From assembly GCF_003575965.1 (NCBI RefSeq), contig NZ_QWJJ01000023.1:1-42004 (forward strand): a DNA stretch of 42,004 bases. Direction: 5' to 3'. The notes under the pieces are model-generated. The model was not told where the DNA came from, made no database searches, and saw only the letters and a program-made list of their open reading frames with translations. Below are positions 10,517-31,152 of this stretch, one piece after another. The translations under genes and the position numbers were made by a program. The DNA comes from Pseudooceanicola sediminis. Lineage in GTDB: Bacteria > Pseudomonadota > Alphaproteobacteria > Rhodobacterales > Rhodobacteraceae. Numbering within the stretch: the first letter of the stretch is position 1; each line of letters opens with the position of its first letter.

Positions 10517-10535
10517 AATTGAACATCGTTCAATT
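10517..10535. promoter_or_regulatory. Probable TetR operator upstream of amidase
   Basis: A palindrome with arms AATTGAAC and GTTCAATT around ATC. Its core ATTGAAC-N3-GTTCAAT is identical to the palindrome at 15110-15126 in front of the tetR gene, and an extra similar half-site (ATTGAAAC) begins about 10 bp upstream. It lies about 100 bp before the amidase start. Sharing the site with the tetR/dctM region makes the TetR protein the likely ligand. Confidence 0.75.
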
Positions 10536-10633
10536 GTCGCGTATCTTGGTTGGGAAAGTACTGACGGCATGTGCTCTGGTTTATCACGCACCTGCCCGCT
10601 GCCCCTTGGCCATCTCAATCATGGACATTCCGC

Positions 10634-12136
10634 ATGACCTCACTCCCGACTTCTCCCGCTGACCTTAGTGCGACCGAGGCGCGCGACCTCATCGGCAGAC
10701 GCGCCCTCTCCAGCAAGGAACTGGCCGAGGCCTGCATTGCCCGGGTCGAGGCAATCGACCACGCGGTCAACGCCCTTGTCGCGCGAAATTTCGAGACGGT
10801 GTTGGCGGGCGCCAAGGATGCGGACGAATCACTCGCGAAAGGTGACCCTCTTGGACCGCTGCACGGATTGCCTTTTGCGGTAAAGGACATGATTGATGTC
10901 ACGGGCCTGCCGACGACCTTCGGGTCGGAGCTGTTTGCCGGCGCTATCGCAAAGGGCGACGATCCGATCGTTGCCGCGATGCGCCGCGCCGGAGGCCTGC
11001 CCCTGGGCAAGACCAACAACCCGGAGTGGAGCGCTGGCGGCAATACGCGCAACCGGGTCTATGGCGCGACGGCCAACCCCTATGACCTGACGCGCACCTG
11101 CGCGGGTTCGTCGGGGGGATCGGCGGTGGCGCTGGCCTGCGGTTATGCTCCACTGGCGACCGGATCGGACACGGGCGGATCGCTGCGCAATCCAGCGGCC
11201 TATTGCGGGGTCGTCGGCTTTCGCCCCAGTCCCGGCGTGGTGCCGGGACAGTCGCGCGGCATGGGGTTCATTCCGCTGTCGACCTCTGGCCCGATGGCGC
11301 GCAACGTGGCCGATGCAGGGCTGATGCTGTCGGTGCTGGCGCGACCGGACGCGCGCGACCCCTATACCACGGTGATCGACGGGCAGACATCCTGGGATCC
11401 TGCGGGGTTTGCCGCCCTGCCCCGGCGCGACCTGTCGTCGCTACGCGTTGCCATGAGCGAAGATTTCGGCTTTGCCCCGACCGAAGCGCTGGTGCGTCGC
11501 CAATTCCGCAAAGCCACCGCCGCACTGGCTCCGTTCCTTGGGCGGGCCGAGGAGACGACCCCCGATTGCACCGGCGCAGACCGCATCTTTGCCGTACTGC
11601 GCGGGGTGCTGTTCGTCGGCCAGCATGGCGCTCGGCTGGATGCGCACCCGGACAAGATAGGCCCGAATGTCACCGAGAACGTCATCGAGGGGCGCAGCTT
11701 TACCGCCGACGACATCGCCTGGGCTCTGAGCCAGCAGAGCGCGTTTTACCTGCGCTGGCAGGACTGGTTCCGCGACTGGGATGTCATCGTTACCCCCGCC
11801 GTCACGATCAGCCCGCGCGACTGGCACGAGTTGTACCCTGCCGAGATCGACGGCGTGGCGACGCAGAGCTATTATCACTGGCTGGCGATGGCCTATGCCT
11901 CGTCCCTCGCTGGGCATCCCTCGATCACGATCCCATGCGGGCACGACGAAAACGGCATGCCCTTCGGCTTGCAGATCATCGGACGACGCCACGCCGACCG
12001 CGACGTTCTGGCGGTTGCGGCCGAGGTCGAGGCTGTGCTGGCCGGGCTGTCGGACTTCGCACCGAAAGGTCCGGATCTGGCCGCCCTTGCCGCCGCGCGC
12101 CCGCTGTCGGAATCAGAGGGCTTCCTGAGCTTCTGA
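10634..12136 (+). CDS. Amidase (amidase-signature family)
   Basis: A cytosolic amide hydrolase of the amidase-signature family, about 500 residues as usual. The catalytic triad is visible: Lys84 in FAVKDMID, the cis-serine about 159 in CAGSSGGSAVAL, and the nucleophile Ser about 183 in TGSDTGGSLRNPAAYCG. The start is the ATG at 10634 (MTSLPTSPADLSATEARDLI); the open frame runs 21 codons further upstream but that part has no family resemblance. It stands alone, convergent with the TRAP binding-protein gene and separated from it by a terminator. A TetR-type operator precedes it, so it probably belongs to the regulon at 12204-22418. The substrate is unknown; the context suggests an N-acyl or carboxamide compound taken up by the TRAP system. 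Confidence 0.9.
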   Translation: MTSLPTSPADLSATEARDLIGRRALSSKELAEACIARVEAIDHAVNALVARNFETVLAGAKDADESLAKGDPLGPLHGLPFAVKDMIDVTGLPTTFGSELFAGAIAKGDDPIVAAMRRAGGLPLGKTNNPEWSAGGNTRNRVYGATANPYDLTRTCAGSSGGSAVALACGYAPLATGSDTGGSLRNPAAYCGVVGFRPSPGVVPGQSRGMGFIPLSTSGPMARNVADAGLMLSVLARPDARDPYTTVIDGQTSWDPAGFAALPRRDLSSLRVAMSEDFGFAPTEALVRRQFRKATAALAPFLGRAEETTPDCTGADRIFAVLRGVLFVGQHGARLDAHPDKIGPNVTENVIEGRSFTADDIAWALSQQSAFYLRWQDWFRDWDVIVTPAVTISPRDWHELYPAEIDGVATQSYYHWLAMAYASSLAGHPSITIPCGHDENGMPFGLQIIGRRHADRDVLAVAAEVEAVLAGLSDFAPKGPDLAALAAARPLSESEGFLSF

Positions 12137-12153
12137 GCCAAGACATAGAATTG

Positions 12154-12184
12154 AAAAAGGGCGTCCGGAGGGGCGCCCTTTTTT
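12154..12184. terminator. Bidirectional factor-independent terminator
   Basis: AAAAAGGGCG and CGCCC followed by six T form a GC stem flanked by an A-run and a T-run. It lies between the convergent amidase and dctP genes and can serve both. Confidence 0.85.
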
Positions 12185-12203
12185 GGTGCTGGTGCGGGAT
12201 CGA

Positions 12204-13196
12204 TCAGTCTGGAGCGTAGTCGCCGACCATATCGCGCAATTCGGTGATGCGGGCAGCGTCGACGTCGGTCAGCAGCTCGCCCATGCCGTCGGTGGCGGAC
12301 TTGAAGGTCGCGAGCTCTTCTGCGGTGGGTTCATAGACGGCGATCCCAGCCATTTCGAGGTCGGCTTTCGACGTTTCCTGCGTGGCATCGACCCAGGCAT
12401 AGACATCCTCGAGCGCCGCTTCGGAGGCCGCGTTGACCTGCGCCTTTTCCGCGTCCGACAGCCCGTCCCACCAGGCCGAAGACGCCAGCGCGATACGGGC
12501 CGAGATGATCACCCGCGCATCGGTGAAGTTGGAGAAGAGGTCCGCTTGACCAAAGGCCAGCGGTACGACCGATGCGTTGACATAGCCATTTGCGATGCCC
12601 GTTTGCAGCGCGTTCGGCACTTCGGAGAAGGGAATGACGACGCCGCTTGCACCCATCATCTTGAACATTTCCAGCTGGTTGGCATCCAGCGCGCGCATCC
12701 GCAGACCTTCCATGTCCTTGACTGAGCGGACCTCTTTCTGGTTGTTGAAGATGCCCAGCATGCCACCGGTCGGCACGACGGCCAGAATGTGCATGCCCTC
12801 TGCCGCCAGCTTTTCGTTGACCGTATCCAGGTAGTCGCTTTCGTCGAAGAACTTGTGCACGTGCTGCGAGCTGTCAAAGGTATAGGGTAGCTGCATCACC
12901 CGCATTTCCGGGACAAACTGGTAGGACATGGCGTAGTTCGACATCGAAACGTCCAGGATGCCCGAACGGACCTGGTCCAGCCGGTCATCCTCACCGCCCA
13001 GGGAATCGCGGGGGAAGGTCTCGGTCTCCCATCCCTCAGCCTTGAGGGCGGTGAGCAGGTTGTCGACGTAGCGATAGCTGCCTTGGGTGTCGCGATCCGG
13101 GGTTGCGTCCAGCGCCACCGCGATGGATTGCGCCTGAACAGAGGTCGTTAGGGCCAAGGCGAAAAGGCCAGCAGTGCAGAGAACGTGAAGTTTCAT
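12204..13196 (-). CDS. TRAP transporter substrate-binding protein (DctP family)
   Basis: A periplasmic solute receptor that delivers a small carboxylate-bearing substrate to the DctQM permease. Residues 1-23 are a signal peptide ending VQAQS. Two family features are clear: GGEDDRLDQVRSGILDVSMS near residues 59-78, and the NQKEVRSVKDMEGLRMRA segment (about 152-169), whose arginine pairs with the substrate carboxylate in DctP proteins. The 330 residues are normal. It is the last gene of a dctM-dctQ-dctP unit transcribed away from tetR, 3 bp after dctQ. This order (binding protein last) is less common than P-Q-M. The ligand is unknown; the catabolic genes point to an N-acylated amino acid or a lactam/amide. 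Confidence 0.92.
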   Translation of the reverse strand: MKLHVLCTAGLFALALTTSVQAQSIAVALDATPDRDTQGSYRYVDNLLTALKAEGWETETFPRDSLGGEDDRLDQVRSGILDVSMSNYAMSYQFVPEMRVMQLPYTFDSSQHVHKFFDESDYLDTVNEKLAAEGMHILAVVPTGGMLGIFNNQKEVRSVKDMEGLRMRALDANQLEMFKMMGASGVVIPFSEVPNALQTGIANGYVNASVVPLAFGQADLFSNFTDARVIISARIALASSAWWDGLSDAEKAQVNAASEAALEDVYAWVDATQETSKADLEMAGIAVYEPTAEELATFKSATDGMGELLTDVDAARITELRDMVGDYAPD

Positions 13197-13199
13197 GGT

Positions 13200-13736
13200 C
13201 TACTCCGAATGGTTGGTTTCATATTGGTCGGCGAAAGCGATTTCACGGGCCAACACGCGTGGCGACACCAGCGCGCCAAGTCCGGCCAGCCCGTGCAGCA
13301 GGATCAGAAGGATGGTGACCGGCAGGGCGGAAGCCATCCAGGCTGTCGAAATCTCAAGCCCTTCGGAGGTGCGGCCAAGCTGGCGCAAAACGAAGGGAAA
13401 GCTGTACCAGAGCACCGGCACGAAAAATGCCCAGGAGGCGACGAGGCGCGCCACCACCTGCACCTTCTGTCGCCAGATCACCTTGGCGGGCGGGGTGACC
13501 ATCGCCGGGTCGGCATGGGCGTGAAATGCGCATGAGGCGCCCAGCAGACCACCCCAGACCATCAGCCAGCGCGCCAGCTCCTCTGTCCAGAAGGGTGGCG
13601 AGGCGAAGGCGTAGCGCGCCACCACCTGCAGCATCATCGTCAGCAGCATCCCGAAAAAGCAGAAGGCGGCCAGGCGCAGCGCAAGAAAGTTCAGCGCTGC
13701 GGAAAGGGCATAGAGCGCCTCGGAGAGTCGGATCAT
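13200..13736 (-). CDS. TRAP transporter small permease (DctQ family)
   Basis: The small four-helix membrane subunit of the TRAP transporter. The ATG at 13736 is preceded by GGGAGGA, a strong ribosome-binding site; the frame is open 11 codons further up but without a site. In the 178 residues four hydrophobic segments are visible, with the family motif FWTEELARWLMVWGGLLGAS around the second helix. It starts 13 bp after the end of dctM and ends 3 bp before dctP, so the three are one transcript. It appears intact. Confidence 0.9.
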   Translation of the reverse strand: MIRLSEALYALSAALNFLALRLAAFCFFGMLLTMMLQVVARYAFASPPFWTEELARWLMVWGGLLGASCAFHAHADPAMVTPPAKVIWRQKVQVVARLVASWAFFVPVLWYSFPFVLRQLGRTSEGLEISTAWMASALPVTILLILLHGLAGLGALVSPRVLAREIAFADQYETNHSE

Positions 13737-13749
13737 CGTGGCGTCCTCC

Positions 13750-15036
13750 CTAATTGATGAAGCCGGCAAGGCGCGGCAGGAACAGGCTGATTTCAGGCAC
13801 GAAAGTCAGCACCAACAGCACGACCACCTGCATCAACAGGAAGGGTGCAGCAGCCTTGGCGATGCCCCAGTACGGCACCCCCGACACGGTCGAGACCACC
13901 AGAAGCGCGGCTCCGAAAGGTGGCGTGACGATGCCGAGCATAAGGTTCACCACCAGCACGACGCCGAGATGGATCGGATCCGCACCCATTGCGATGCCGG
14001 CGGGCACGAACAAAGGCACCAGCAACGCCAGTGCGATCGGCACCTCTAGAAACATCCCCGCCACTAGAAAGACGGCATTCAGCAGCAGCAGGTACTTCCA
14101 GCCCTCGAACCCGAACCCGATGACCATCTCCGCCAGCAGGGTCGGCAATTTCTCCAGCCCCGCGAGGTAGCCGAAGATCGCCACTGCCGAGAGCAGAATG
14201 AAGATCGAACCTGACAGGATCGCTGTACGCTCAAAGCTTTCGACCAGCAGGCGCAGGTTCATGTTGCCATAGATCATGCCCGCGATGATCGAACAGCAGA
14301 CAGCGAGGCCCGCGGCCTCGGTCGGGGTCATGATGCCGAAGACGATGCCCGACAGAATGATTACCGGAATGACTGTCGCGGGAAGCGCATGGACGAAGCG
14401 GCGGAAAACCTCGCGCGCGGGCAGACGTTCGCCTGCAGGGTGATCGTAGCGATGTGCCAGAAAGGCGTTGGTGGCGAACAGGGCCACCGCCATGAACAGT
14501 CCCGGCAGTATCCCCGCCACGAACAGCGCCGCGACAGAGGTGTTCATCAATGCGCCGTAGAAGATCATGATGATCGAAGGAGGAATGATCGGCCCGATGA
14601 CTGAGGACGCCGCCGTGATTGCACCGGCGTAGTTGGCGCTGTAGCCCGCCTTGCGCATCGCGGGCACCAGAGTGTTGGATACGGAGGCGGCATCGGCCAT
14701 AGCCGAGCCGGAAATTCCCGCGAAGAACACCGAGGTCAGGATGTTTACATGCCCAAGCCCCCCCTTCAGCCGTGCCATCAACCCCATCGACAGATCGACC
14801 AGCGCCTTGGTCACCCCGGCGCGGTTCATGATCTCGCCCGCCAGAATGAACAGCGGCATCGACATGATCGAGAACAGGTCGATGTTGGCGATGATGCGTT
14901 GCGGCGCGGCGGCCAGAAAGCGCGCGCGATCCGCCGCGACGAACGACAGGATCGAAGCCGCGCCGATCAGATGCGCCAGAACCGCTCCCCCCATGAGAAG
15001 GCAGACAGAAAAGATGAGTATCGAAATGGCGGCCAT
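13750..15036 (-). CDS. TRAP transporter large permease (DctM family)
   Basis: The large membrane subunit that carries the sodium-coupled transport path. I place the start at the ATG at 15036 (MAAISILIF), preceded by GGAGAG; this gives 428 residues, the usual size. The open frame continues to 15366, but that extension would run through the divergent promoter and the start of tetR and is not protein-like. Family motifs are IMSMPLFILAGEIMNRAG, FAGISGSAMADAASVSNTLV and VIGPIIPPSIIMI. It is the first gene of the minus-strand transporter unit, divergent from tetR with a shared palindromic operator at 15110-15126. Confidence 0.92.
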   Translation of the reverse strand: MAAISILIFSVCLLMGGAVLAHLIGAASILSFVAADRARFLAAAPQRIIANIDLFSIMSMPLFILAGEIMNRAGVTKALVDLSMGLMARLKGGLGHVNILTSVFFAGISGSAMADAASVSNTLVPAMRKAGYSANYAGAITAASSVIGPIIPPSIIMIFYGALMNTSVAALFVAGILPGLFMAVALFATNAFLAHRYDHPAGERLPAREVFRRFVHALPATVIPVIILSGIVFGIMTPTEAAGLAVCCSIIAGMIYGNMNLRLLVESFERTAILSGSIFILLSAVAIFGYLAGLEKLPTLLAEMVIGFGFEGWKYLLLLNAVFLVAGMFLEVPIALALLVPLFVPAGIAMGADPIHLGVVLVVNLMLGIVTPPFGAALLVVSTVSGVPYWGIAKAAAPFLLMQVVVLLVLTFVPEISLFLPRLAGFIN

Positions 15037-15109
15037 CGCGGCTCTCCGTTGTTCGGCTGAGGGCGTGATCGGATCGCGCCACCTCGGTCGCAGTGCTGTT
15101 GATCTTTTA

Positions 15110-15126
15110 ATTGAACGGTGTTCAAT
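15110..15126. promoter_or_regulatory. Probable TetR operator in tetR-dctM divergent promoter
   Basis: A perfect palindrome, ATTGAAC-GGT-GTTCAAT. It is identical in both arms to the site before the amidase gene (10517-10535) and midway between the divergent starts of dctM and tetR. A promoter-like TTGATC lies immediately to its left. This is the usual position for an autoregulating TetR repressor. Confidence 0.78.
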
Positions 15127-15200
15127 AAGATGGCAAAAGGATTCTGCGGCTGGCAAGGAAATTCCCGAGTTTGCCCGAAAATTAATCAGGAGTGGCCATT

Positions 15201-15968
15201 TTGCCGGAAAATGACGATCCCAAGCCAAGGAGCAAGCTGCGGGGCCGCGCGGCGGCCATCGGCCTGACCAAGGCGCAGGTGATCGCAGCTGCGCTGGCAC
15301 AGATTGATGAAAAAGGGCTGCAGGCATTTTCGATGCGCGAGCTTGCGCGCTCGCTCGACGTTTCACCGGGTAATATCTACTTTCACCTGGGCGGCGCGAA
15401 GGAAGACCTGTTTGCCGAGATTTCCGGGGCGCTTACGGCATCGGTATCTGAGAATATCGACGCTGGTATGCCTTGGCAGGACCGGTTGCGGCAGGTGTTT
15501 CTGGCCTATCGCGATACGGTGGGTACCCATCCCAATTTGGCGCCGATGCTGGGTGCCCAGATGAAATCGAACGGCGTGGCCAACCTCGCCTGGGTCGAAA
15601 CGGTGCTTGGTGCGCTCGGCGACGCCGGATACCACGGGCAGGCGCTGCGTGATGCCTTCAACGCGCTGATCGGCGGGCTCGGCGGTTTCATCACGATGGA
15701 ATTCGCCCCCGCCCCCAGTGAAAAAGCCCGAGAATGGGAAGAGCTGTTCGCCGCCCGTGTCGCAGCCATCGACCCCGAACTGTACCCCCGCACCCATGCA
15801 GTGCTGCCAGAGCTTTCCAACCGCATCTTCGTGCTGCGCTGGCAGAATGGCACGAATGTCTCCTATGCGGGTGGCTACGAATTGCTGCTGAACCTGCTGA
15901 TCGACGGGCTGGCGGCACATGCGCCGCGCGGGCCCGACACCTCTTCCCCGACCGACACGACCAACTGA
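15201..15968 (+). CDS. TetR-family transcriptional regulator
   Basis: A one-component repressor with an N-terminal helix-turn-helix and a C-terminal ligand domain. The DNA-binding part is TKAQVIAAALAQIDEKGLQA followed by FSMRELARSLDVSPGNIYFH (about residues 23-66), the standard TetR pattern with a YFHLGGAKEDLF continuation. Start: AGGAG at 15188-15192 is 8 bp before the TTG at 15201, which I prefer; a GTG at 15192 would overlap that site. It is the first gene of a seven-gene operon and probably represses itself, the divergent TRAP genes and the amidase through the shared ATTGAAC-N3-GTTCAAT palindrome. The inducer is probably the transported compound or a breakdown product. Confidence 0.88.
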   Translation: MPENDDPKPRSKLRGRAAAIGLTKAQVIAAALAQIDEKGLQAFSMRELARSLDVSPGNIYFHLGGAKEDLFAEISGALTASVSENIDAGMPWQDRLRQVFLAYRDTVGTHPNLAPMLGAQMKSNGVANLAWVETVLGALGDAGYHGQALRDAFNALIGGLGGFITMEFAPAPSEKAREWEELFAARVAAIDPELYPRTHAVLPELSNRIFVLRWQNGTNVSYAGGYELLLNLLIDGLAAHAPRGPDTSSPTDTTN

Positions 15969-15980
15969 AAAGGACATCCC

Positions 15981-16325
15981 ATGACCACGATTGCCAATCT
16001 TCCCTTCTCGAAAGTCCGCCGCAGCGGTGGCACCGTCTATCTTTCGGGCGAACTGGGCTTTGACGCCGATGGCAGCCTGCCCGCCGGCATCGAAGCACAG
16101 ACCCGAAACTGTCTTCAGCGCATCAAGGCGACGTTGCAGGCCGAAGGACTGGATATGGCGAATGTGCTGTCGTGCACCTGCTATCTGACGGACAAGGCCG
16201 ATTTTGCCGCCTTTAACACAACCTATGCAGAGTTCTTCGCCGATCCCAAGCCGGTGCGCACGACCGTGGAAAGCGGGCTGATGATTGACGCCTGCGTCGA
16301 GATCACCGTGATCGCCGAGGCATAA
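15981..16325 (+). CDS. RidA-family (YjgF) enamine/imine deaminase
   Basis: A small trimeric cytosolic protein of the Rid family. RidA proteins hydrolyse reactive enamines/imines made by PLP enzymes and amino-acid oxidases, releasing ammonia and a 2-oxo acid. The 114-residue length is normal. The N-terminal YLSGELGFDADGSLPAGIEA and the C-terminal PVRTTVESGLMIDACVEITV carry the family pattern, including the arginine that binds the substrate carboxylate. The ATG at 15981 follows AAAGGA. It lies 12 bp after tetR and 45 bp before an FAD amine oxidase, whose imine product is its natural substrate; this pairing is known for D-amino-acid and amine oxidation clusters. Confidence 0.9.
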   Translation: MTTIANLPFSKVRRSGGTVYLSGELGFDADGSLPAGIEAQTRNCLQRIKATLQAEGLDMANVLSCTCYLTDKADFAAFNTTYAEFFADPKPVRTTVESGLMIDACVEITVIAEA

Positions 16326-16370
16326 GCCCATCCTATCGGCGCGTGCGCCAAATTTGAGAGGCATTGGCTG

Positions 16371-17606
16371 ATGTCCGAAATCCTCGTTCTGGGCGCTGGA
16401 ATGGTCGGCGTTTCGACAGCGCTGGCCCTACAGGCGCGCGGCCATGCGGTAACGTTGGCTGATCGCCGCGCTCCAGGTCTTGAAACCAGCTATGGCAACG
16501 CCGGGGTCATCCAGGTTGAGGCGGCTGAACCCTATCCGATGCCGCGCGATCCGATGACATTGGCGCGCATGGCCTTGGGGCGCAGCAATGACATCGCCTA
16601 TTCGCCTGCCGGGCTGCTGCACCAGTCGGGCGCGTTGTGGCGCTATTTCCGCGCCTCGGGGCCGCGCCGGCACAAGGTCGTGTCGCAGATCTACAGCCAG
16701 CTGACGGCGCGCGCGACCGCTGATCACCAGCCGCTGATCACCGCCTCGGGCAGCGAGAACCTGATCGCGCGCGACGGTCTGGCGCTGCTGTTTCGCAAAG
16801 CGATCGACTTTGACGCCGCGGCCCGCGCGGCCGAGCATCTGCGTGCCGCCTACGGTGTTGCCTCGCGCGCGGTGGACGGCAAAGCGTGGCAGCGCGAAGA
16901 ACCCGCGCTGCGCCTGACCCCGGCAGGCGCAGTGCATTATACTGGTAGTTGGAGCGCCTCGGACCCCGGAGGACTGACAGCGGCCTATGCGGACCTGTTC
17001 GAACGACAGGGCGGGCGCATCCTGCTGGCCGATGCGAAAACGCTGCTGCGCACTGGCAGCGGCTGGCAGATCGACGGCCCCGATGGTCCGATCACGACCA
17101 AGGCCGCGGTACTCTGCCTTGGCCCCTGGACCGGCAGTTATCTGCGCCGTTTCGGCCTGCGGGTGCCGATGGTGCTGAAGCGCGGCTACCACGCCCATTA
17201 CGACGCCCCGCTGCGCCCGCGCCGCCCATTTCTGGACGCCGACAACGGTGTTGTCCTGTCACCGATGACGCGCGGATTGCGGATGGCCAGCGGTGCCGCG
17301 CTGGTGCCGATGGACGCTGCTGCCGATCCGCGCCAGCTGCGCCGCGCCGAAGCCGCAGTCGGCACGCTGATCGAACTTGGCCCGCGGCTGGAGGAACCCC
17401 AGTGGGTCGGCACACGGCCCTGCCTTCCAAGCATGTTGCCCATGGTCGGCGCAATCCCCGCGCAATCTGGCCTTTGGGTGAATTTTGGTCATGGACATCA
17501 AGGTTTTACCCTTGGCCCGACCACCGCGACACTGTTGGCCGATGCCTTTGAGGGCGCGCCCTCAGAACTGCAAAAGGCGCTGTCGCCCGCAGTGCAGATG
17601 ATCTGA
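16371..17606 (+). CDS. FAD-dependent amino-acid oxidoreductase (DadA/DAO family)
   Basis: A flavoenzyme that oxidises a (probably D-) amino acid or secondary amine to an imine. The N-terminal Rossmann motif ILVLGAGMVGVSTALALQAR (residues 4-23) and the DadA-like ETSYGNAGVI place it in the DAO superfamily, and the C-terminal GHGHQGFTLGP contacts FAD. The 411 residues match D-amino-acid dehydrogenases of the DadA type, which pass electrons to the respiratory chain rather than to oxygen; which applies here cannot be told. It has a GAGAGG site before the ATG at 16371. RidA upstream and D-aminoacylase downstream support a D-amino-acid substrate. Confidence 0.88.
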   Translation: MSEILVLGAGMVGVSTALALQARGHAVTLADRRAPGLETSYGNAGVIQVEAAEPYPMPRDPMTLARMALGRSNDIAYSPAGLLHQSGALWRYFRASGPRRHKVVSQIYSQLTARATADHQPLITASGSENLIARDGLALLFRKAIDFDAAARAAEHLRAAYGVASRAVDGKAWQREEPALRLTPAGAVHYTGSWSASDPGGLTAAYADLFERQGGRILLADAKTLLRTGSGWQIDGPDGPITTKAAVLCLGPWTGSYLRRFGLRVPMVLKRGYHAHYDAPLRPRRPFLDADNGVVLSPMTRGLRMASGAALVPMDAAADPRQLRRAEAAVGTLIELGPRLEEPQWVGTRPCLPSMLPMVGAIPAQSGLWVNFGHGHQGFTLGPTTATLLADAFEGAPSELQKALSPAVQMI

Positions 17607-17636
17607 CCCCTTTCCGACGGTAACCCGGAGACGCCC

Positions 17637-18920
17637 ATGCCGACCGACCTTGCCTTGACCACCGACACTTCGCTTGATCATGCGCTGCAAGTGGCCATCG
17701 CGTGCTACCGCGCCCGCAATCCGGGCAGTGCCGAGATGCTGGAGCGCGCCCGTCAGGTGCTGCCCGGGGGCAATACTCGTAGCTCACTCTGGGCCAATCC
17801 ATTTCCGCTGTGCATTGCGTCCGGTCAGGGCTGTCACATCCGCGACGTCGACGGGAATGACTATGTCGACATGCTGGGTGAGTTCACCGCCGGAATCTTC
17901 GGCCACTCCTCTCCCGTCCTCGCCGAGGCGATCGCGACCGCCCACGCCCGCGGGATCAATCTGTCGTCACATACCCCCTATGAGGTCGAGCTGGCCGAGC
18001 GGCTCTGTGCGCGCTTTCCGTCCCTCGAGAGGCTGCGTTTCGCCAATTCCGGGACCGAGGCGAACCTGATGGCGCTGATGGCCGCGCGGCTGGTCACGAA
18101 GCGGGACCGGATCGTGGTGTTCCGGGGCGGCTATCACGGTGGGGTGCTGACTTTCGGGGACGGGGTGTCGCCCGTCGATGTGCCGTTCGACTATGCCTGC
18201 CTGCCATATAACGACATCGCCGCCGCCGAAGCCGAGTTCGCCCAGAGCGGCGCACGAATCGCGGCGGTACTGGTTGAGCCGATGCAGGGTGCCGGGGGCT
18301 GCGTGCCCGGCGATCCCGCGTTTCTGGCAGCGCTGCGCCGGTTGAGCGAGGCGCACGGCGCGATCCTGATCTTTGACGAGGTGCAGACGGCGCGCATGTC
18401 GGTTGGCGGCGCACAGGCGCGGCTGGGTATCATCCCGGACATGACAACTCTGGGTAAGATTTTTGGCGGCGGGCTGGCCTTCGGCGCCTTTGGCGGGCGA
18501 GCCGAGATCATGGACCGTTTCGATCCCGCGCGCGCCGATGCCCTGCCCCATGCGGGCACCTTCAACAACAACAGCCTGACCATGGCGGCGGGGGTGGCGG
18601 CGATTGACCACTACCTCGGGGCGGAGGCGCTGGAGGCGCTGTTTCAGCGCGGCGAAGACCTGCAGCGGCGGTTGACGGCGGTATTTGCCGAAACCGGTTT
18701 GCCATTTGCCGTCACCGGTATGGGCGCGATCATGAACCTGCATGCCCGCAGTGGCGAGGGTGCTGCGACAGACCGCAAGTTGCTGTCCCTTCTGCATTTC
18801 AGGATGCAGGAACGGGGCTACTATTTTGCCGCGCGTGGTCTGATCGCCCTGTCGTTGCCGGTCGGAGAGAATGAGATCCGCGGTTTTCTGACGGCTATTG
18901 AACAGGGGTTGCAGGCATGA
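17637..18920 (+). CDS. Class III aminotransferase (glutamate-1-semialdehyde aminomutase-like)
   Basis: A PLP-dependent fold-type I enzyme. The N-terminal part AEMLERARQVLPGGNTRSS resembles glutamate-1-semialdehyde aminomutases and related aminotransferases. FRGGYHGG binds PLP phosphate, IFDEVQTAR holds the Asp contacting the PLP ring nitrogen, and TLGKIFGGGLAFGAFGG carries the Schiff-base lysine. Its 427 residues are normal. It is unlikely to be the haem-pathway enzyme because it sits in a catabolic operon; an amino-group transfer or an aminomutase step on an omega- or beta-amino acid is more probable. The ATG at 17637 follows GGAG; its stop overlaps the next gene's start (ATGA). Confidence 0.87.
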   Translation: MPTDLALTTDTSLDHALQVAIACYRARNPGSAEMLERARQVLPGGNTRSSLWANPFPLCIASGQGCHIRDVDGNDYVDMLGEFTAGIFGHSSPVLAEAIATAHARGINLSSHTPYEVELAERLCARFPSLERLRFANSGTEANLMALMAARLVTKRDRIVVFRGGYHGGVLTFGDGVSPVDVPFDYACLPYNDIAAAEAEFAQSGARIAAVLVEPMQGAGGCVPGDPAFLAALRRLSEAHGAILIFDEVQTARMSVGGAQARLGIIPDMTTLGKIFGGGLAFGAFGGRAEIMDRFDPARADALPHAGTFNNNSLTMAAGVAAIDHYLGAEALEALFQRGEDLQRRLTAVFAETGLPFAVTGMGAIMNLHARSGEGAATDRKLLSLLHFRMQERGYYFAARGLIALSLPVGENEIRGFLTAIEQGLQA

Positions 18921-20434
18921 AGCCGGCCTTCGATATCGTCATCCGGGGCGGTCGGGTGATGGACCCTGAAACCGGCTTCGACCAGATTGCCGATGTCGCC
19001 ATTCGCGGCGCAGCGGTGGTTGCCATTGGCCGCGACCTGCCCGAAGGGCGCACCGAACTGGATGCGGTCGGGCGGATCGTCGCACCTGGGTTCGTTGACA
19101 TCCACGCCCATGGCCAGTCGCTGGCCGCCGACCGGATGCAGGCCTTCGATGGCGTGACAACGGCGCTTGAGCTTGAGGTCGGCGCATTGCCAGTGGCCGA
19201 GTGGTACGCCACCCAGACCGAGCGCCCGCGGCTGTTGAACTATGGTACGTCGGCTGGGTGGTTGTTCGCCCGCTGCCAGGTGATCGCCGACATGCCCGCC
19301 GATGGCACTGTGCCGTCGATGACGCTGATGGGGCGCGGTGCGGACGACCGGCGCTGGTCGCTGGACGCCGCGACCGAGGCGCAGGCAGAGCAGATTGTGA
19401 CGCTGCTGAAGGGCGGTCTGAAAGAGGGTGGTATCGGCATCGGCATCCCCAACGGCTATGCGCCCGGCGCGGGTGTGAAGGAGCTGACCCGCGTCTGCGC
19501 GCTGGCGGCGGAGGCGGGCAGCCTGACTTTTACCCACATCGCCAATGCGTCGAACGTCGACCCGCACAGCTCGCTCGAAAGCTACGTGCGCATCATCGGG
19601 CTGGCCGGGGCGACGGGCGCGCACATGCATGTGTGCCATCTGAACTCGACCTCGATTCTGGATGTGAAAAGCGCCGTCGACGTGCTGCAACGCGCTCAGG
19701 CACAGGGTCTGCCGATCACCGTCGAAGCCTATCCCTATGGCACCGGATCTACCGTGGTCAGTGCCGGCTTCTTCACCCAGCCAGATTTCGCCGCCCGCAC
19801 CGGCTCCGATTATGACCAGATCGAACTGGTACGCAGCGGCGAACGGTTCACAAATGTCGAGGCCCTTCGCGCCGCCAGCGCGCGCGATCCCGGCGATCTG
19901 ATCCTGTGGCACTTCCTGGATACTGAAAACGAACCGGCACATCGCGGCTTGCTGGACCTGTCGGTTACATATCCAGGCGGCAATATCGCGTCGGACGCCC
20001 TGCCCTGGACCATGCCTGATGGCAGCTTTTACGACGGCGCCGACTGGCCGCTGCCCGAGGAGGCGACCTCGCACCCCCGTTCCTCCGGGACGTTCACGCG
20101 GTTCCTGCGCGATTACGTGCGCGACCGCGCGCTGATCGGACTGATGGAGGGGCTTGCGAAATGCACCCTGCTGCCCGCCCGCGTGATCGAGGAAACTGCA
20201 CCGCAGATCCGCCGCAAGGGGCGGCTTCAGGTCGGGTGCGACGCCGACGTGGTGGTCTTCGATTTCGATCGGTTGCAAGACCGCGCGACCTTCCGGCAGA
20301 TGAACCTTACGGCCGAAGGCATGGTGCATGTGCTGGTCAACGGCGTGCCGGTGATCTGCGACGGCGCGCTCGACACGGATGCCGCACCCGGTGTGGCCAT
20401 CGTCGGGCGGGGCATCGCAGAGGCACGCGCATGA
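18917..20434 (+). CDS. D-aminoacylase / N-acyl-D-amino-acid deacylase family amidohydrolase
   Basis: A metal-dependent hydrolase of the amidohydrolase superfamily that would remove an acyl group from an N-acyl-D-amino acid. The N-terminal beta-sandwich (FDIVIRGGRVMDPETGF) precedes the metal motif FVDIHAHGQS (about residues 60-69). Further candidate ligands are the histidines in TFTHIAN and MHVCHLNS and the Asp in IASDALPW. In well-studied D-aminoacylases a cysteine (GNCG) is a zinc ligand; here the equivalent segment reads TTALELEVGALP, with glutamate instead. As I recall, this is typical of a subgroup labelled D-glutamate deacylases. The C-terminal GRLQVGCDADVVVFD closes the sandwich. Overlaps of 4 bp with both neighbours indicate translational coupling. 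Confidence 0.85.
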   Translation: MKPAFDIVIRGGRVMDPETGFDQIADVAIRGAAVVAIGRDLPEGRTELDAVGRIVAPGFVDIHAHGQSLAADRMQAFDGVTTALELEVGALPVAEWYATQTERPRLLNYGTSAGWLFARCQVIADMPADGTVPSMTLMGRGADDRRWSLDAATEAQAEQIVTLLKGGLKEGGIGIGIPNGYAPGAGVKELTRVCALAAEAGSLTFTHIANASNVDPHSSLESYVRIIGLAGATGAHMHVCHLNSTSILDVKSAVDVLQRAQAQGLPITVEAYPYGTGSTVVSAGFFTQPDFAARTGSDYDQIELVRSGERFTNVEALRAASARDPGDLILWHFLDTENEPAHRGLLDLSVTYPGGNIASDALPWTMPDGSFYDGADWPLPEEATSHPRSSGTFTRFLRDYVRDRALIGLMEGLAKCTLLPARVIEETAPQIRRKGRLQVGCDADVVVFDFDRLQDRATFRQMNLTAEGMVHVLVNGVPVICDGALDTDAAPGVAIVGRGIAEARA

Positions 20435-21360
20435 GCGTGCCCGTCATTCTGGTGACCGGCTTTCTGGGCGCGGGCAAGACCAGTTTTATCAATGCCTTGC
20501 TGGAAAGCGGCTTGCGCCGCGTCGCCGCCATCGTCAACGATTTCGGCGCCATCAACATCGACGCGGAAATCCTTGAAGGGCGCAGCGATGCGGTGATCGG
20601 CCTGGGAAACGGCTGCATCTGCTGCTCTCTTCAAGGTGATCTGCTGCGCAGCCTGAAACTGGTACTGGCACAGCAGCCCGAGGCCATCGTGATTGAGGCC
20701 TCGGGCGTATCGGACCCGCGCGGCATTGTCGAAACGCTCTCCGATCCAGTGCTGTGGAACGATGTGCGGCTGGACGCAATCCTGTGCGTCGTCGACGCCC
20801 AGGACTTGGCAGACACCCCCGCGCGCGCCGACGATCCGCTGTGGCAGGCACAGGTCGGCGCAGCGGATTACGTCATCCTGTCCAAGACCGCGCTGGCCGA
20901 TCCTGCAGGGCTGGCGCGCCTGAACACCCGGATCGCTGCCGGATACCGGCTGAAATCCTTCGACGTCGATCGCGACGGGCTGCCGCTGGCAGTGCTGTTC
21001 ACCGATGCCATAACGCCGCGTGCCCCGTTGCCGCCGGGCCGGGTGCATAGCGCCGAACGCTTCACCGCACTGGACTGGCAGGCCGAAGGGCGTCTGCCCT
21101 TCAACGGTTTCCAGCGCCTGATGGAGGATCTGGCGCCGGTGCTGTGGCGTGCCAAGGGCTTTGTCTCGGTGATCGAGCGTCCGGGACCACCGCTGCTGTT
21201 CCAGATGGTCGGTCGGCGCGCCGGGTTTGAAACCGGCACCAGCACCCGCACCGGATGCCGGCTGGTGCTGATCGGTGAAACCGACGGCTTTGACGCGGAT
21301 GCGGCGCGCGCCCGGCTTGACGCCCTGATCCAGCACCCTGACAAGAAAGATTGCAAATGA
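20431..21360 (+). CDS. CobW/COG0523-family GTPase (metal chaperone type)
   Basis: A G3E-family P-loop GTPase of the CobW/ZNG1/YeiR group, which bind Zn or related metals and deliver them to client metalloenzymes. Visible are the Walker A GFLGAGKTS (residues 9-17), the metal-binding CxCC in GNGCICCSL (about 67-75), a switch-like EASGVSDPRG, and the base-recognition segment ILSKTAL, which replaces the usual NKxD. The 309 residues include the CobW C-terminal domain. The ATG at 20431 overlaps the deacylase stop, and its own stop overlaps the next hydrolase start. Being sandwiched between two predicted binuclear-metal hydrolases, it probably metallates one or both; that is inference. Confidence 0.88.
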   Translation: MSVPVILVTGFLGAGKTSFINALLESGLRRVAAIVNDFGAINIDAEILEGRSDAVIGLGNGCICCSLQGDLLRSLKLVLAQQPEAIVIEASGVSDPRGIVETLSDPVLWNDVRLDAILCVVDAQDLADTPARADDPLWQAQVGAADYVILSKTALADPAGLARLNTRIAAGYRLKSFDVDRDGLPLAVLFTDAITPRAPLPPGRVHSAERFTALDWQAEGRLPFNGFQRLMEDLAPVLWRAKGFVSVIERPGPPLLFQMVGRRAGFETGTSTRTGCRLVLIGETDGFDADAARARLDALIQHPDKKDCK

Positions 21361-22418
21361 CCGCCCTGTCCCCCTCTGATCTGAAAGGCAAGGTGCAGAC
21401 CGTCACCGGGCTGGTCGCGCCGCAAACACTCGGCGCGGCCTTGATGCACGAACATCTGTTCATCGACCTGAACCCGCCGAAGTTTCGCACCACCCCCCTG
21501 CCCGATGGAGTTTCGGACGCGCCGATCGACCTGTGCAACTGCTTTCGCGCCCGCTATGGGCAGGGCCATTTCACCGACAACTACCGCATCGACGACTTCG
21601 CCGTGGTCCGCCACGAGGTCGAGGAAATGCAGCGCGCCGGGGGCCGCACCCTGGTCGATCTGACGGTCGGCGGCCTTGGCCCGCGCCCGCTACTCCTGCG
21701 CCGCATGGCCGAGGAAACCGGCGTGCAGCTGGTCATGGGCTGCGGGCATTATGTCGAGGAATACCAGATGGCCGAAACCGCCGAAATGTCGGTCGATGCC
21801 CTGGCTGCGCAGATGACCGCGCAGATACTGGAGGGCGCCTGGGGCACCGATGTGCGCGCCGGGATCATCGGTGAAATCGGCTGCCAGACACCCTGGACCG
21901 ACCGCGAAAAGCGGGTGATGGAAGGCGCCATCGCGGCGCAAAAGGCTACCGGCGCGGCGCTGAACGTCCACCCAGGTCGCGAACCGCATCAGCCGCAAGA
22001 GGTGGTGGATTTTGTCACAGCGCGCGGCGGTGCCCCGGAACGCCTGATCCTCAGCCATATCGACCGGACCATCTTTGACGACGACACGCTGTTCCGGCTG
22101 GCCGACACTGGCTGCATGATCGAATATGACCTGTTCGGCTGGGAGGACAGCTATTATTGGCCCAACCCCGATATCGACCTGCCCAATGATGCGATGCGGG
22201 TGCGCTGGCTGCGCAAACTGGCAGAGCGTGGGCATCTTGACCAGATCCTGATCAGCCATGATGTCTGCACCAAGGGGCGGCTGGAGCAGTTTGGCGGCCA
22301 CGGTTTTCAGCACATCTTTGCCAACGTGGTGCCGCTGCTGCTGCGCCGGGGTTTCACTCAAGGGATGGTCGACCGGATCTTGATCGACAACCCCGCGCGG
22401 CTGCTGACCTTCGTCTGA
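21357..22418 (+). CDS. Phosphotriesterase-like (PTE family) amidohydrolase
   Basis: A metal-dependent TIM-barrel hydrolase of the PTE family (phosphotriesterase-homology proteins, lactonases, some amidases). The first metal pair is in LMHEHLF (residues 30-36); later ligands are likely in VHPGRE, LSHIDRT and the Asp of ISHDVCT. The bridging residue normally found after strand 4 falls in IIGEIGCQTP as Glu rather than the carbamylated Lys of true phosphotriesterases. Family members with Glu here are known. The gene starts at the ATG at 21357, inside the preceding stop, and is the last of the operon. A role in opening a lactone, lactam or amide intermediate is plausible; phosphotriester hydrolysis is unlikely. 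Confidence 0.87.
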   Translation: MTALSPSDLKGKVQTVTGLVAPQTLGAALMHEHLFIDLNPPKFRTTPLPDGVSDAPIDLCNCFRARYGQGHFTDNYRIDDFAVVRHEVEEMQRAGGRTLVDLTVGGLGPRPLLLRRMAEETGVQLVMGCGHYVEEYQMAETAEMSVDALAAQMTAQILEGAWGTDVRAGIIGEIGCQTPWTDREKRVMEGAIAAQKATGAALNVHPGREPHQPQEVVDFVTARGGAPERLILSHIDRTIFDDDTLFRLADTGCMIEYDLFGWEDSYYWPNPDIDLPNDAMRVRWLRKLAERGHLDQILISHDVCTKGRLEQFGGHGFQHIFANVVPLLLRRGFTQGMVDRILIDNPARLLTFV

Positions 22419-22919
22419 CAGCTGGGATCCTGAGGTGTTGGGCCGAAGCGGCAGGCTTGGGAAACTGCAAATTCCGGCTCAGATCCCATTGGCATAAGCA
22501 TCTCTACAACGAAGCAATCGTCTCAAAATCATCCGTGTGGGCTTTGCCATTCGATAGCGAAACTGGCTCAGGGTCCATTGATGATGATCGCGCTGCGTGT
22601 TTCACGACTCCTGAAATAGCATTGTGTCTTTTCCAAATCCTCCGGTCCGAGCGACGCGCAGATGGCGCCCCTCACGCCCTATTTCCAAAGTCCGATGCCG
22701 AATCTCACCTCGACGACAGGCCCATTCTGAGTCGGACTAAATTGATCAAATGCAAAGACTTACGCTAGCAGGGCGTTTCAGCGAAATATGGGTCGCAAAC
22801 TATGCCAGATGGCCTGTGAGAATGGTGCAGATCTATGGTCTTCCCGATTACGGACAGATTTGCGAAAGTGCTGAGATTGCCTTTTGAGCACATTTTCACC
22901 CGACGAGGGAGCCTTGGTG
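22419..22919. other. 500-bp region, no gene recognised
   Basis: This lies downstream of the catabolic operon. An open frame of 103 codons at 22457-22768 has no motif or ribosome-binding site. No T-rich terminator hairpin is evident after the operon stop. GC content falls noticeably here and in the adjoining IS remnant. Confidence 0.5.
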
Positions 22920-23740
22920 GGCCGCGGCCGATATTCCGCCGCCCAGCCCCGAGGCGAGCACTAAACGTTGTAAAGCTCGCCCCGCCTGTCAATGCCTGCC
23001 AAGGCCGCTGCCCCGGTTTAGAATTCGGGGGGGGGACGCACTCGGCCTTCGCGCTTCGCAATAGCCTTTTGATCTCGATGTTGCCCATCCAGCGGCCCCC
23101 CTTCCATCGAAACCTTCAGCGGGGCGCCGAACAGGATCTGATTGAAGCGCAGGCTGATGAAAGGGCTGACCCGGCCCGTATTGAAGATCGCGGGCCGAGC
23201 ATGCAACTTTAGAGCCTCTTCCAGCACGACAATGCAGCGCTCCGTATCCAAGGGGGCAATAGCTGCCAGGCCCGAATATGGCGCGTCATCCTCTCCATGG
23301 CGACTGCGCTAGAACGGTGGGTCGTCCAGATTCATCAAAGCCAGTTTCAGCGGAGCCTCGATCCTGCACACGCCCTACCGCACCGGCCGGCTCATGCTGT
23401 CCGGCGCGCACTGCTAAACGGTCTACAGCGCAGAAAGCATCGGCTCGATCATCTCTCGTGATCTGGAATCGCTCACCGACCGGAGTCGGTCGCTAGAAAT
23501 TCCTGTTCGACGAAAAATTGCACGAGTTCGACGGTAGGTTGCCCTATCTTGACGCGCAGCTTTTCTATCTGGCCTGCCTTCCCACTCGTCTTGGCCTCGC
23601 CCTTGTCCGAAAAGATCCCGGAGAGGTCTTCGATCGACTTTCGCTACCAAATGTTGATCAGAGTTTCATGCATCCCATCCAAGCATTGCCACCAGTTCAG
23701 CGAACGTCATCTCGCCACGAATGGCCCCAGCCTGGGGGCT
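22920..23740 (-). mobile_element. Decayed IS3-family insertion sequence (orfA and orfB remnants)
   Basis: Read on the minus strand, fragments of an IS3 transposase appear in the right order but in several frames and with stops. From orfA there is DLSGIFSD, then AGQIEKLRVKIGQPTVE and FLATDSGR near 23640-23490. From orfB come LKLALMNLDDPPF (near 23340), CIVVLEEALKLHARPAIFNT with a degraded DDE-core block and KVSMEGGPLD (23018-23251), then NIEIKRLLRSAKAECV (below 23088). Family members normally read IEKLHAKIGQLVVERDFLA and NVFIERLWRSIKYECVY at the last of these places. No open transposase remains; terminal repeats were not found. Old and immobile. Confidence 0.8.
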
Positions 23741-23968
23741 AAACTCTCCGGACACTGTTCGGCGTGAATGCCCAATATCAATAAAACCAATGAGCTATCG
23801 AAGGCCAAGCTCGAAATGGCGAGCCTTGCGGCGGGGGGCTTTGAATTCATCCTTTCCCTATTGATGCAAATTACTGAACGAAACTTGCTCACAAAAACAT
23901 TTGGCAAACAAAGAAGCACTTTTACCTGAGACTCCCCGCCCACCTCAGGATCTAACTTAAGATGTGCG

Positions 23969-25985: not shown

Positions 25986-27017
25986 TCAGTGAGATCGAGG
26001 CGCCGCCGTAGATTTTCTTGGGATAAGGCTCGGCGTCGCGATGCGAACCTCGCTCGAGCCTTCGGATGCATTGTTCAATAGCTGAAGCGCCATTTCAGCG
26101 ATATGGTCAAACGGCACCTTAACAGTCGTGAGGGGTACCGGCAGGCGTGACACGATCGGAATATCATTGTAGCCGACGAGCGAAATGTCATGTGGAACTG
26201 AAAATCCAAAGCTCGCGATAGCGGACAGAGCACCGATTGCAGTGTTATCATTGACCGCAAAGATTGCCGTTGGTCTATCTTTCAACTTAAGCAATGTCTC
26301 TGCCGCAAGTTCGCCAGACTCGATGCTGAAAGTCGACGGCACGATTAAATCTGACGACAACGAAACACTGGCCTCTTCTAGCGCCTTGCAATACCCCTCG
26401 AGCCGACCGCGCGCGCTCGTCGCGTAGTCCGGGCCAGTGATCAAGCCTATACGACGGTGTCCAAGATCAAGAAGATGGCGCGTGGCGAGGTAGCCGCCAA
26501 GTGGGTCATCCCCGATAGCAGCCAAACTCTGGCCGTTCTGGCGCAGTGCAAGAACGAAAGGAATATGGCGTGCGCGCAATTCATCCGTGAAATGGTCGTC
26601 GATACGCGCCGTCGAAAGAATCAATCCATCGACCCCCCGTCGGATCAGCGCCTCTGCTGCGGCACGGCCGGCGTCCGGGTGGTCGTCTGTCGTGGCAACG
26701 ATGGCGAACTGACCATTTCGACCGGCCGCTTTTGCTAAAGATTCATAAAGCATTGCCATCACCGTATCGGTCAGGCGCGGTACGATCACGCCAATCTGCC
26801 CGGTTGATCCGCGCCGCAGGTTCGCGGCCGACAGGTCGCGCACATAACCCAGCTTTTCCGCTACCTCCCGCACATGTCGAGCAGATGGGTTATCTGCCGT
26901 CGGCAAACGTTCATCGAGTATTCGTGACACCGTTGATTTCGAGAACCCGGAAGCTTTTGCCACGTCCAGCAAGGTCACCCTGCCCTTTGGTTTGTGATGA
27001 TTTTGGTCGCCGTCCAT
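25986..27017 (-). CDS. LacI-family transcriptional regulator
   Basis: A sugar-type repressor. The DNA-binding head VTLLDVAKASGFSKSTVSRI (about residues 14-33) and hinge SAANLRRGSTGQIGVIVP are classical, followed by the periplasmic-binding-protein-like core with its LGHRRIGLITGP and VGYNDIPIVSRLPVPLTTVK segments. The 343 residues are full length. It is divergent from the aldolase/TAXI-TRAP/PL22 operon and separated from it by a promoter overlapped by a perfect GGGAACGTTCCC palindrome. It therefore most likely represses that operon until a uronate or oligouronide derivative is bound. Confidence 0.92.
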   Translation of the reverse strand: MDGDQNHHKPKGRVTLLDVAKASGFSKSTVSRILDERLPTADNPSARHVREVAEKLGYVRDLSAANLRRGSTGQIGVIVPRLTDTVMAMLYESLAKAAGRNGQFAIVATTDDHPDAGRAAAEALIRRGVDGLILSTARIDDHFTDELRARHIPFVLALRQNGQSLAAIGDDPLGGYLATRHLLDLGHRRIGLITGPDYATSARGRLEGYCKALEEASVSLSSDLIVPSTFSIESGELAAETLLKLKDRPTAIFAVNDNTAIGALSAIASFGFSVPHDISLVGYNDIPIVSRLPVPLTTVKVPFDHIAEMALQLLNNASEGSSEVRIATPSLIPRKSTAAPRSH

Positions 27018-27062
27018 TTGGCCGTCCTTGCTGGTGCATCGTGCTCTGACGCTAAACTAACA

Positions 27063-27117
27063 CTTGACAGCTATCTGGTGCAATGTATTTCTGGGAACGT
27101 TCCCGCAATCGTTCCCG
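27063..27117 (+). promoter_or_regulatory. Promoter with LacI-type operators
   Basis: A consensus -35 box TTGACA (27064-27069) and a weaker -10-like TATTTC 16 bp later precede the palindrome GGGAACGTTCCC (27093-27104). The motif CGTTCCCG occurs twice as a direct repeat (27098-27105 and 27110-27117), 12 bp apart, so a second half-site lies on the same helix region. The palindrome overlaps the expected transcription start, as for a steric repressor. The downstream gene begins at 27184 after GGAGGAG. Confidence 0.75.
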
Positions 27118-27183
27118 TATCATCGAAAGATGTTGTGGATGACGCGGCACAGTCAGACACACCAGCCGGAGGAGTTTCCGAAA

Positions 27184-28125: not shown

Positions 28126-28128
28126 GTA

Positions 28129-28165
28129 GCAAGCTGGCTTGCCCCCTGGGGAGAGGGAGCAAGCC
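28129..28165 (+). other. Intercistronic stem-loop before binding-protein gene
   Basis: GCAAGC-TG-GCTTGC forms a compact hairpin (28129-28142), and the same GGCTTGC arm can instead pair with GCAAGCC at 28159-28165. Two alternative structures are thus possible between the aldolase stop and the binding-protein ribosome-binding site (AGGGAGG). Confidence 0.6.
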
Positions 28166-28186
28166 AATTCACCAGGGAGGACAAAC

Positions 28187-29188: not shown

Positions 29189-29196
29189 GACGCGTA

Positions 29197-31149: not shown

Positions 31150-31152
31150 AAC

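Follow-up and report, generated by a model that had tools for sequence, protein, structure and literature searches.

Layout of the cassette

The window analysed here, a 42,004-nucleotide stretch of DNA from Pseudooceanicola sediminis (contig NZ_QWJJ01000023.1), carries a cassette of 11 genes: an amidase gene, a divergent dctM-dctQ-dctP set encoding a TRAP transporter, and the series tetR-ridA-DAO-aminotransferase-amidohydrolase-cobW-PTE. The genes, together with two palindromes that are predicted to be operators, are listed below.

10518..10534, no strand: palindromic operator (predicted), 17 bp, ATTGAACATCGTTCAAT, upstream of the amidase gene
10571..12136, plus strand: amidase-signature amidase (Pfam PF01425, 4.5e-92); likely start ATG 10634
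12204..13196, minus strand: dctP, TRAP solute-binding protein (Pfam); nearest solved relatives by sequence 4n8g and 4ngu
13200..13769, minus strand: dctQ, TRAP small permease (Pfam); an inner ATG at 13736 is a likely start
13750..15036, minus strand: dctM, TRAP large permease (Pfam); relatives align from ATG 15036, the mechanical open reading frame (ORF) extending to 15366
15110..15126, no strand: palindromic operator (predicted), 17 bp, ATTGAACGGTGTTCAAT, in the tetR/dctM divergent promoter
15192..15968, plus strand: tetR-family regulator, presumed repressor of the cassette (Pfam PF00440, PF02909); start GTG 15192 or TTG 15201
15981..16325, plus strand: ridA, enamine/imine deaminase family (Pfam PF01042, 1.3e-26)
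16371..17606, plus strand: FAD-dependent amine/D-amino-acid oxidoreductase, DAO family (Pfam PF01266, 1.7e-49)
17637..18920, plus strand: class III aminotransferase, beta-phenylalanine aminotransferase type, 49% identical to VpAT
18917..20434, plus strand: D-aminoacylase-like amidohydrolase (NCBIfam NF006560, 683 bits against a cut-off of 340)
20431..21360, plus strand: CobW/COG0523 GTPase, putative metallochaperone (Pfam PF02492 and PF07683); start set at ATG 20431 rather than at that of the long ORF from 20161
21351..22418, plus strand: PTER-like amidohydrolase, phosphotriesterase (PTE) family, predicted N-acyl-beta-amino acid deacylase (Pfam PF02126, 3.7e-68); 39% identical to 9efa

Pfam assigns all of the named families: amidase, DctP, DctQ, DctM, TetR, Rid/L-PSP, DAO, class III aminotransferase, amidohydrolase, CobW plus CobW_C, and PTE. 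The plus-strand series is tightly packed, with gaps of 12 bp (tetR-ridA), 45 bp (ridA-DAO), and 30 bp (DAO-aminotransferase) followed by overlaps of 4 bp (aminotransferase-amidohydrolase), 4 bp (amidohydrolase-cobW), and up to 10 bp (cobW-PTE). The minus-strand dctM-dctQ-dctP genes diverge from tetR, and the plus-strand amidase gene converges with dctP. The gene inventory, strands, order, and tight or overlapping junctions given for this region in an earlier note are thus borne out by Pfam and by the ORF coordinates.

Conservation of the gene set

The amidohydrolase as query retrieved 79 loci, of which 6 contain all 11 genes. Neighbourhoods were drawn for 18 of the 79 and the remainder searched with the window proteins only; gene calls in the relatives came from a crude ORF picker. 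Gene order is the same in L009 to L012, which represent a proteobacterial metagenome-assembled genome, Pararhodobacter aggregans, P. marinus, and Rhodobacter sp. NTK016B. It is different in Jiella mangrovi (L028) and Aurantimonas (L038), where the genes fall into the blocks amidase-aminotransferase-PTE, DAO-ridA-tetR, and dctMQP-amidohydrolase-cobW. Because all 11 genes recur in these six loci, two of which are rearranged, the linkage is not due to chance. Nor is the set peculiar to this strain, which the earlier note had named as an outcome that would count against it.

The distribution of the cassette is patchy. Counting this genome, the PTE gene is present in 4 of 23 genomes of the genus and in 23 of 385 genomes of the class at E <= 1e-50, the class set, like that of the order considered below, being a sample.

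Palindromic operators and a probable local TetR regulon

The two window sites share a perfect 17-bp palindromic core, ATTGAAC-N3-GTTCAAT. The amidase-side site extends to a 19-bp palindrome, AATTGAAC-N3-GTTCAATT, at 10517-10535, with 10517 being the start of the region given in the earlier note. In the 4,440,901-base genome, the exact form TTGAACN3GTTCAA occurs only twice, both times in the cassette, and allowing one mismatch adds just 4 sites.

A near-exact operator, TTGA[AC]C-N3-G[GT]TCAA, is found in none of the six relatives with the full gene set. A relaxed form, ATTGNAC-N3-GTNCAAT, required to match at 11 or more of 12 positions, recovers 12 sites in the six relatives plus the 2 in the window; since its half-site was picked after inspecting the relatives, the site count is partly fitted, while position and symmetry are not. 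All 14 of these sites lie in promoters of the gene set: the tetR/dctM promoter in 7/7 loci, the amidase promoter in 5/7, and the tetR/ridA promoter in L028 and L038. Dinucleotide shuffles (20 per locus) yield a mean of 0 to 0.05 relaxed-form sites, and shuffles of the window yield 0 at the same threshold. In L011 and L012, the amidase gene has no operator of its own; the amidase ORF begins about 30 bp after the end of another ORF, whose promoter the amidase gene may share. Later starts have been assumed for tetR in L028 and L038 and for ridA in L028, where the longest mechanical ORFs would overlap the operator.

The cassette is therefore very probably one local TetR regulon in which TetR is predicted to bind both palindromes and to be released by the substrate or a product. 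The idea that a single TetR regulon unites uptake, amide hydrolases, amine oxidation, and a metal chaperone, which had been put forward from the gene list, is supported by the gene set and the operators together.

A PTER-like hydrolase

The last gene of the cassette encodes a protein that is 39% identical to 9efa, its best sequence match in PDB, and 35% identical to 3k2g. The 9efa protein is named phosphotriesterase-related and is taken here as a PTER orthologue; residue numbering is that of PTER in PMC13311154, with positions transferred by alignment to 9efa. All six PTER metal ligands (H26, H28, E169, H201, H230, and D298) and the active-site residues R204, R233, and Y263 are present in the window protein and are kept in 39/39 other full-length bacterial homologues aligned. 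One partial homologue (27% identity) lacks the conserved PTER residue set, and 3k2g carries Gly, Pro, and Phe at the positions of R204, R233, and Y263. PTER itself is inactive on N-acetyl-alpha-alanine, N-acetyl-gamma-aminobutyrate (N-acetyl-GABA), carnosine, and pantothenate (PMC13311154).

An organophosphate hydrolase (OPH) can be dismissed, as the protein scores 39 bits with the OPH model (cut-off 500) and its best PDB sequence match is 9efa. The earlier note had the protein act on an amide or lactam-like solute. It is PTER-like, of the N-acyl-beta-amino-acid hydrolase type, and is no obvious lactam or hydantoin hydrolase.

An aminotransferase of the beta-amino-acid type

The best solved relatives of the class III aminotransferase are VpAT (4ao9, E 1.8e-119) and MesAT (2yku, 1.8e-113), far above the glutamate semialdehyde aminomutases. 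Identity to VpAT is 49% over 419 aa. The window protein and each of the 52 other aligned homologues have the VpAT residues R41, K267 (the catalytic lysine), and R398; E75 is kept in the window protein and is Asp in four rows of the homologue alignment. According to PMC9850050, R41 is the substrate carboxylate residue, bonding the carboxyl of the beta-amino acid. Two other assignments were rejected. As a glutamate-1-semialdehyde aminomutase, the protein scores 284.8 bits against a cut-off of 398, and VpAT is a far better match. A CoA-dependent Kat is likewise set aside, Kat being just 24% identical to the Mesorhizobium beta-transaminase (PMC3149608).

L199 (1680-8400) and L201 (1717-8454) contain a VpAT-type aminotransferase operon with a DAO enzyme, a TRAP transporter (dctM 58% identical to that of the window), and an M81/MlrC metallopeptidase. 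This is the Roseobacter TRAP-M81 operon, described below, with an aminotransferase replacing amidohydrolase-cobW. MlrC releases a beta-amino acid from microcystin, and by analogy, the M81 proteins of L199 and L201 may do similar chemistry. An M81 gene is near the aminotransferase gene in only 2 of 52 loci.

PTE and aminotransferase genes in other genomes

The PTE and aminotransferase genes also travel together elsewhere. They are adjacent in 7 of 35 PTE places outside this genome (L099, L102, L113, and L117-L120); flanks were available for 33 of the 35 (up to about 10 kb for 20 and about 1.5 kb for the others, less at contig ends), and the contigs of the remaining two places (in G274 and G351) are without an aminotransferase match. 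On the aminotransferase side (cut-off 1e-90), 39 of 68 places, besides a few more, were fetched with wider flanks. Among 384 genomes, 16 of the 22 that bear PTE also hold the aminotransferase (Fisher p 7e-10, phylogeny ignored). In S. meliloti pSymA (L224), the aminotransferase gene lies directly upstream of PTE, and in L223 and L227, plasmid regions fetched for PTE, a VpAT-type gene was not seen.

In several loci the pair is joined by a gene for BKACE (beta-keto-acid cleavage enzyme). The BKACE gene adjoins the PTE-aminotransferase pair in L127 and L128, both from one genome (G274). On the Paraburkholderia graminis plasmid pPHS1_P (L222), BKACE is divergent from PTE, and there follow a TetR gene, a porin gene, an MFS gene, an aminotransferase gene, and an amidase gene; identities to the window proteins are 36% (TetR), 58% (PTE), 51% (aminotransferase), and 44% (amidase). 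Palindromes of the form TTGTTC-N3-GWACAA occur in L222 at 6880 (the BKACE/PTE gap), 9124 (before porin-MFS), and 11685 (before aminotransferase-amidase), three places against a shuffle mean of 0.04 matches. In L205 (5275-7353), a TetR gene (35% identical to that of the window) is divergent from the aminotransferase gene, and the gap contains two perfect palindromes, TTGTAC-N3-GTACAA. Both patterns were picked after inspection. At the level of sequence, they place a related regulator and a site of similar design at genes proposed for beta-amino acid use alone. No TRAP, amidohydrolase, CobW, DAO, or RidA relative lies within the 15 kb fetched for L222. The window's genome contains two BKACE genes, both elsewhere than in the cassette.

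Other genes were seen beside the pair. In L127 (4708-13626), L128, and L211, PTE-aminotransferase-BKACE (without PTE in L211) lies beside an MttB-type methyltransferase gene, and L127 and L128 have a DAO-GCV_T protein as well; this suggests that the substrate of these three clusters is an N-methylated beta-amino acid or a betaine. Genes for C45-family peptidases are near PTE in L223 (Rhizobium NXC24 plasmid) and near the aminotransferase gene in L233 (Rhizobium C104 plasmid).

Enzymes of a possible D-amino-acid arm

The amidohydrolase, besides exceeding the NF006560 cut-off, has 3gip, an N-acyl-D-glutamate deacylase, as its best solved relative, with 1m7j also matched. The cobW gene is directly downstream of the amidohydrolase gene in 24 of 31 loci in which the amidohydrolase is at least 44% identical. 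This tandem arrangement suggests that the CobW chaperone serves the amidohydrolase. Of the 6 Azospirillum amidohydrolase loci, 4 continue with a DAO gene (48%) and a fifth has a partial match. In L013 and on the Octadecabacter plasmid pOA238_160 (L228), the order is DAO, dctM, dctP, dctQ, M81, amidohydrolase, cobW.

The DAO enzyme scores 139.4 bits with the DadA subfamily model NF001933, under the curated cut-off of 383, and the name DadA-like that had been given to it is not retained. Its gene has further associations with amidase and ridA. A Pseudosulfitobacter plasmid carries contiguous amidase (70%), ridA (66%), and DAO (51%) relatives beside genes for D-serine ammonia-lyase and ACC deaminase, and the order annotated on another plasmid of this kind is identical. 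A Paroceanicella plasmid has an amidase relative (71%) beside D-serine ammonia-lyase, without ridA or DAO relatives. Finally, DctP and its nearest solved relatives, 4n8g and 4ngu, have in common an RA(L/M)D-x-(S/N)Q stretch; we take 4n8g and 4ngu to be D-Ala-D-Ala complexes.

Proposed pathway and alternatives

Taken together, the genes are best explained, with moderate confidence, as a TetR-repressed catabolic regulon with two arms, one for beta-amino acids and one for D-amino acids. Considered separately, the beta-amino-acid arm is probable and the D-amino-acid arm stands just on the favourable side of even. The palindromes of L222 and L205 lend slight further weight to the beta arm and to the overall explanation.

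The compound imported by the TRAP transporter would be an amide with a carboxylate, built from beta- and/or D-amino acids that carry an N-acyl group or are linked to one another, and its amide bonds would be cut by the amidase, the D-aminoacylase-like enzyme (metallated with the help of CobW), and the PTER-like enzyme. The last of these would free a beta-amino acid, which the VpAT-type aminotransferase would convert to a beta-keto acid, to be finished by a BKACE encoded elsewhere in the genome or by spontaneous decarboxylation. A freed D-amino acid, or a similar amine, would be oxidised by the DAO enzyme, and RidA, which acts after DAO-type enzymes, would hydrolyse the imine. That one molecule feeds both arms is doubtful, co-regulation being the one argument for it.

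Several observations weigh against this reading. Among 390 genomes sampled from the order, just 2, this one included, have the PTE gene at E <= 1e-90. At 28 of the 35 other PTE places no such aminotransferase gene was seen, although for at least 13 of them the flanks inspected were no longer than about 1.5 kb. The same scan detected no operator of this kind near L122 and L123, which are PTE-aminotransferase pairs from the same genus, or in L124, L125, and L127. BKACE is near only 5 of 70 loci scanned, and because 4 of the 5 supplied the BKACE model, this adjacency is illustrative rather than statistical. In the aminotransferase, Ser and Phe replace V43 and Y76 of the VpAT pocket, and thus no aromatic substrate preference is claimed. 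In the amidohydrolase, the GNCG cysteine of D-aminoacylase (Cys96, the bridging cysteine) is not kept, LEVG being found instead. The protein is for this reason labelled only D-aminoacylase-like: the family relationship stated in the earlier note stands, and D-specificity is weaker than it claimed.

The hydrolase raises further points of the same kind. The window protein has Cys where PTER has the substrate-contact residue H300, and it is accordingly called PTER-like rather than PTER. Cys also stands there in 34 of the 39 further full-length homologues from bacteria, the remaining five having D, A, or G. In mouse PTER, loss of R204 removes 90% of N-acetyltaurine hydrolysis and doubles N-acetyl-beta-alanine hydrolysis (PMC13311154); retention of R204 in all full-length homologues thus favours a sulfonate or a second acid group on the substrate. 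In addition, mouse PTER also cleaves N-acetyl Leu, Ile, Met, and Val at less than 20% of the N-acetyltaurine rate (PMC11374699), so the fold is not confined to beta-amino acids.

Among the alternatives, the one that survives best, although unlikely, is that two or three separate catabolic functions are held side by side under one regulator to serve a mixed pool rather than a single substrate, for instance debris of peptides or cell walls that contains D- and beta-residues. The sub-modules do occur alone, as amidase-ridA-DAO, PTE-aminotransferase, TRAP-M81-amidohydrolase-cobW, and amidohydrolase-cobW-DAO. However, the eleven-gene set is kept through rearrangement, with operators at equivalent promoters.

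The linear scheme of the earlier note, in which one N-acyl-D-amino acid or lactam is attacked by three hydrolases in turn and the D-alpha-amino acid so released is a substrate of both the oxidase and the aminotransferase, is improbable. It accords with a D-aminoacylase-like enzyme whose best solved relative is 3gip, with the presence of DAO and RidA, with amidase relatives that adjoin D-serine ammonia-lyase, and with the closeness of DctP to 4n8g and 4ngu if these are D-Ala-D-Ala complexes. Yet the aminotransferase, being of the beta-amino-acid type, and the PTE-like enzyme point to beta-amino acids, and in other genomes their genes are paired away from those for the amidohydrolase, DAO, and RidA.

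Least probable is N-acyltaurine catabolism, with the PTER-like enzyme hydrolysing N-acetyltaurine or another N-acyltaurine and the aminotransferase acting on taurine: PTER is an N-acetyltaurine hydrolase (PMC11374699), the R204 needed for that activity in mouse is in every full-length homologue aligned, and in PMC9870897 the expression of naaS is taken to indicate that Ruegeria pomeroyi uses N-acetyltaurine as an exometabolite of phytoplankton, but the genome has no Xsc (sulfoacetaldehyde acetyltransferase) above cut-off (best 268.8 bits against 676.4), BKACE adjoins or accompanies the PTE-aminotransferase pair in L127, L128, and L222, with shared operators in L222, the aminotransferase is closest to beta-phenylalanine aminotransferases, and the D-aminoacylase-like, DAO, and RidA genes are left unexplained. 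An NCBIfam scan of the neighbours of the distant amidohydrolase relatives L048 and L074 and of L199 gave no taurine link.

The preferred two-arm regulon leads to a broader and much more tentative proposal: that bacteria hold a dedicated, inducible N-acyl-beta-amino acid pathway (a PTER-family enzyme, a VpAT-type aminotransferase, and BKACE), here fused with a D-amino-acid arm, and that the nutrient is a small mixed beta/D amide. If so, this amide would be a previously unrecognised dissolved-nitrogen substrate. The cassette would also provide a natural bacterial context for PTER-type chemistry, studied in mammals in the cited papers, and a natural context for beta-amino acid aminotransferases, which in those papers otherwise come from degradation studies or biocatalysis. 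Testable functions are offered for proteins recorded as 'aryldialkylphosphatase', 'phosphotriesterase', 'hypothetical protein', or 'class III aminotransferase', and a practical search for the substrate can start from the operator, the TRAP binding protein, and the aminotransferase.

Surroundings of the cassette

Immediately downstream of the cassette, positions 22419-23968 have a GC content of 0.55, compared with 0.64 in the cassette, and the one ORF tested there has no Pfam match; this may be decayed sequence. Further along, 25986-32238 holds a second putative catabolic cluster, with a LacI regulator, a DHDPS-family protein, another DctM, and an oligogalacturonate-lyase-like/PD40 protein. A phage-type integrase gene followed by an IS91-type (Y2) transposase gene lies at 34740-36953, about 12 kb from the cassette. 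Neither Rfam families nor tRNA genes were detected when the window was scanned for them.

Comparison with known systems

The enzyme families are all known. A literature search limited to open-licence papers found no description of the gene set or of a bacterial PTER-like/beta-aminotransferase pathway, and within that search, the combination and the PTER-like/aminotransferase pairing appear to be new.

PTER, the N-acetyltaurine and N-acetyl-beta-alanine hydrolase, shares with the window protein 39% identity (9efa), the metal ligands, and R204, R233, and Y263; the window protein differs in the change of H300 to Cys, in being bacterial, and in its operon with a beta-type aminotransferase. VpAT and MesAT (4ao9 and 2yku) have R41, E75, K267, and R398 in common with the window aminotransferase, which is 49% identical to VpAT, whereas V43S and Y76F alter the side-chain pocket and the gene is here co-regulated with deacylases and a TRAP importer. 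With D-aminoacylase and N-acyl-D-glutamate deacylase (1m7j and 3gip), the HxH and later His/Asp/Arg motifs of the amidohydrolase align, but the match is in two separate stretches only, LEVG stands for GNCG, and there is a CobW partner.

Two gene clusters come nearest. The Roseobacter TRAP-M81-amidohydrolase-CobW operon (L013, its relatives, and L228) shares dctM (57-59%), the amidohydrolase (60-63%), cobW (48-54%), and a DAO enzyme. In L013 and L228, it differs in having an MlrC/M81 metallopeptidase and an XRE-cupin type regulator, and PTE, a VpAT-type aminotransferase, and tetR were not seen in either locus. The L222 cluster, like the window, holds PTE, aminotransferase, amidase, and TetR genes in one region, with palindromes at three promoters; it differs in adding BKACE, a porin, and an MFS protein and in its operator letters, TTGTTC-N3-GWACAA.

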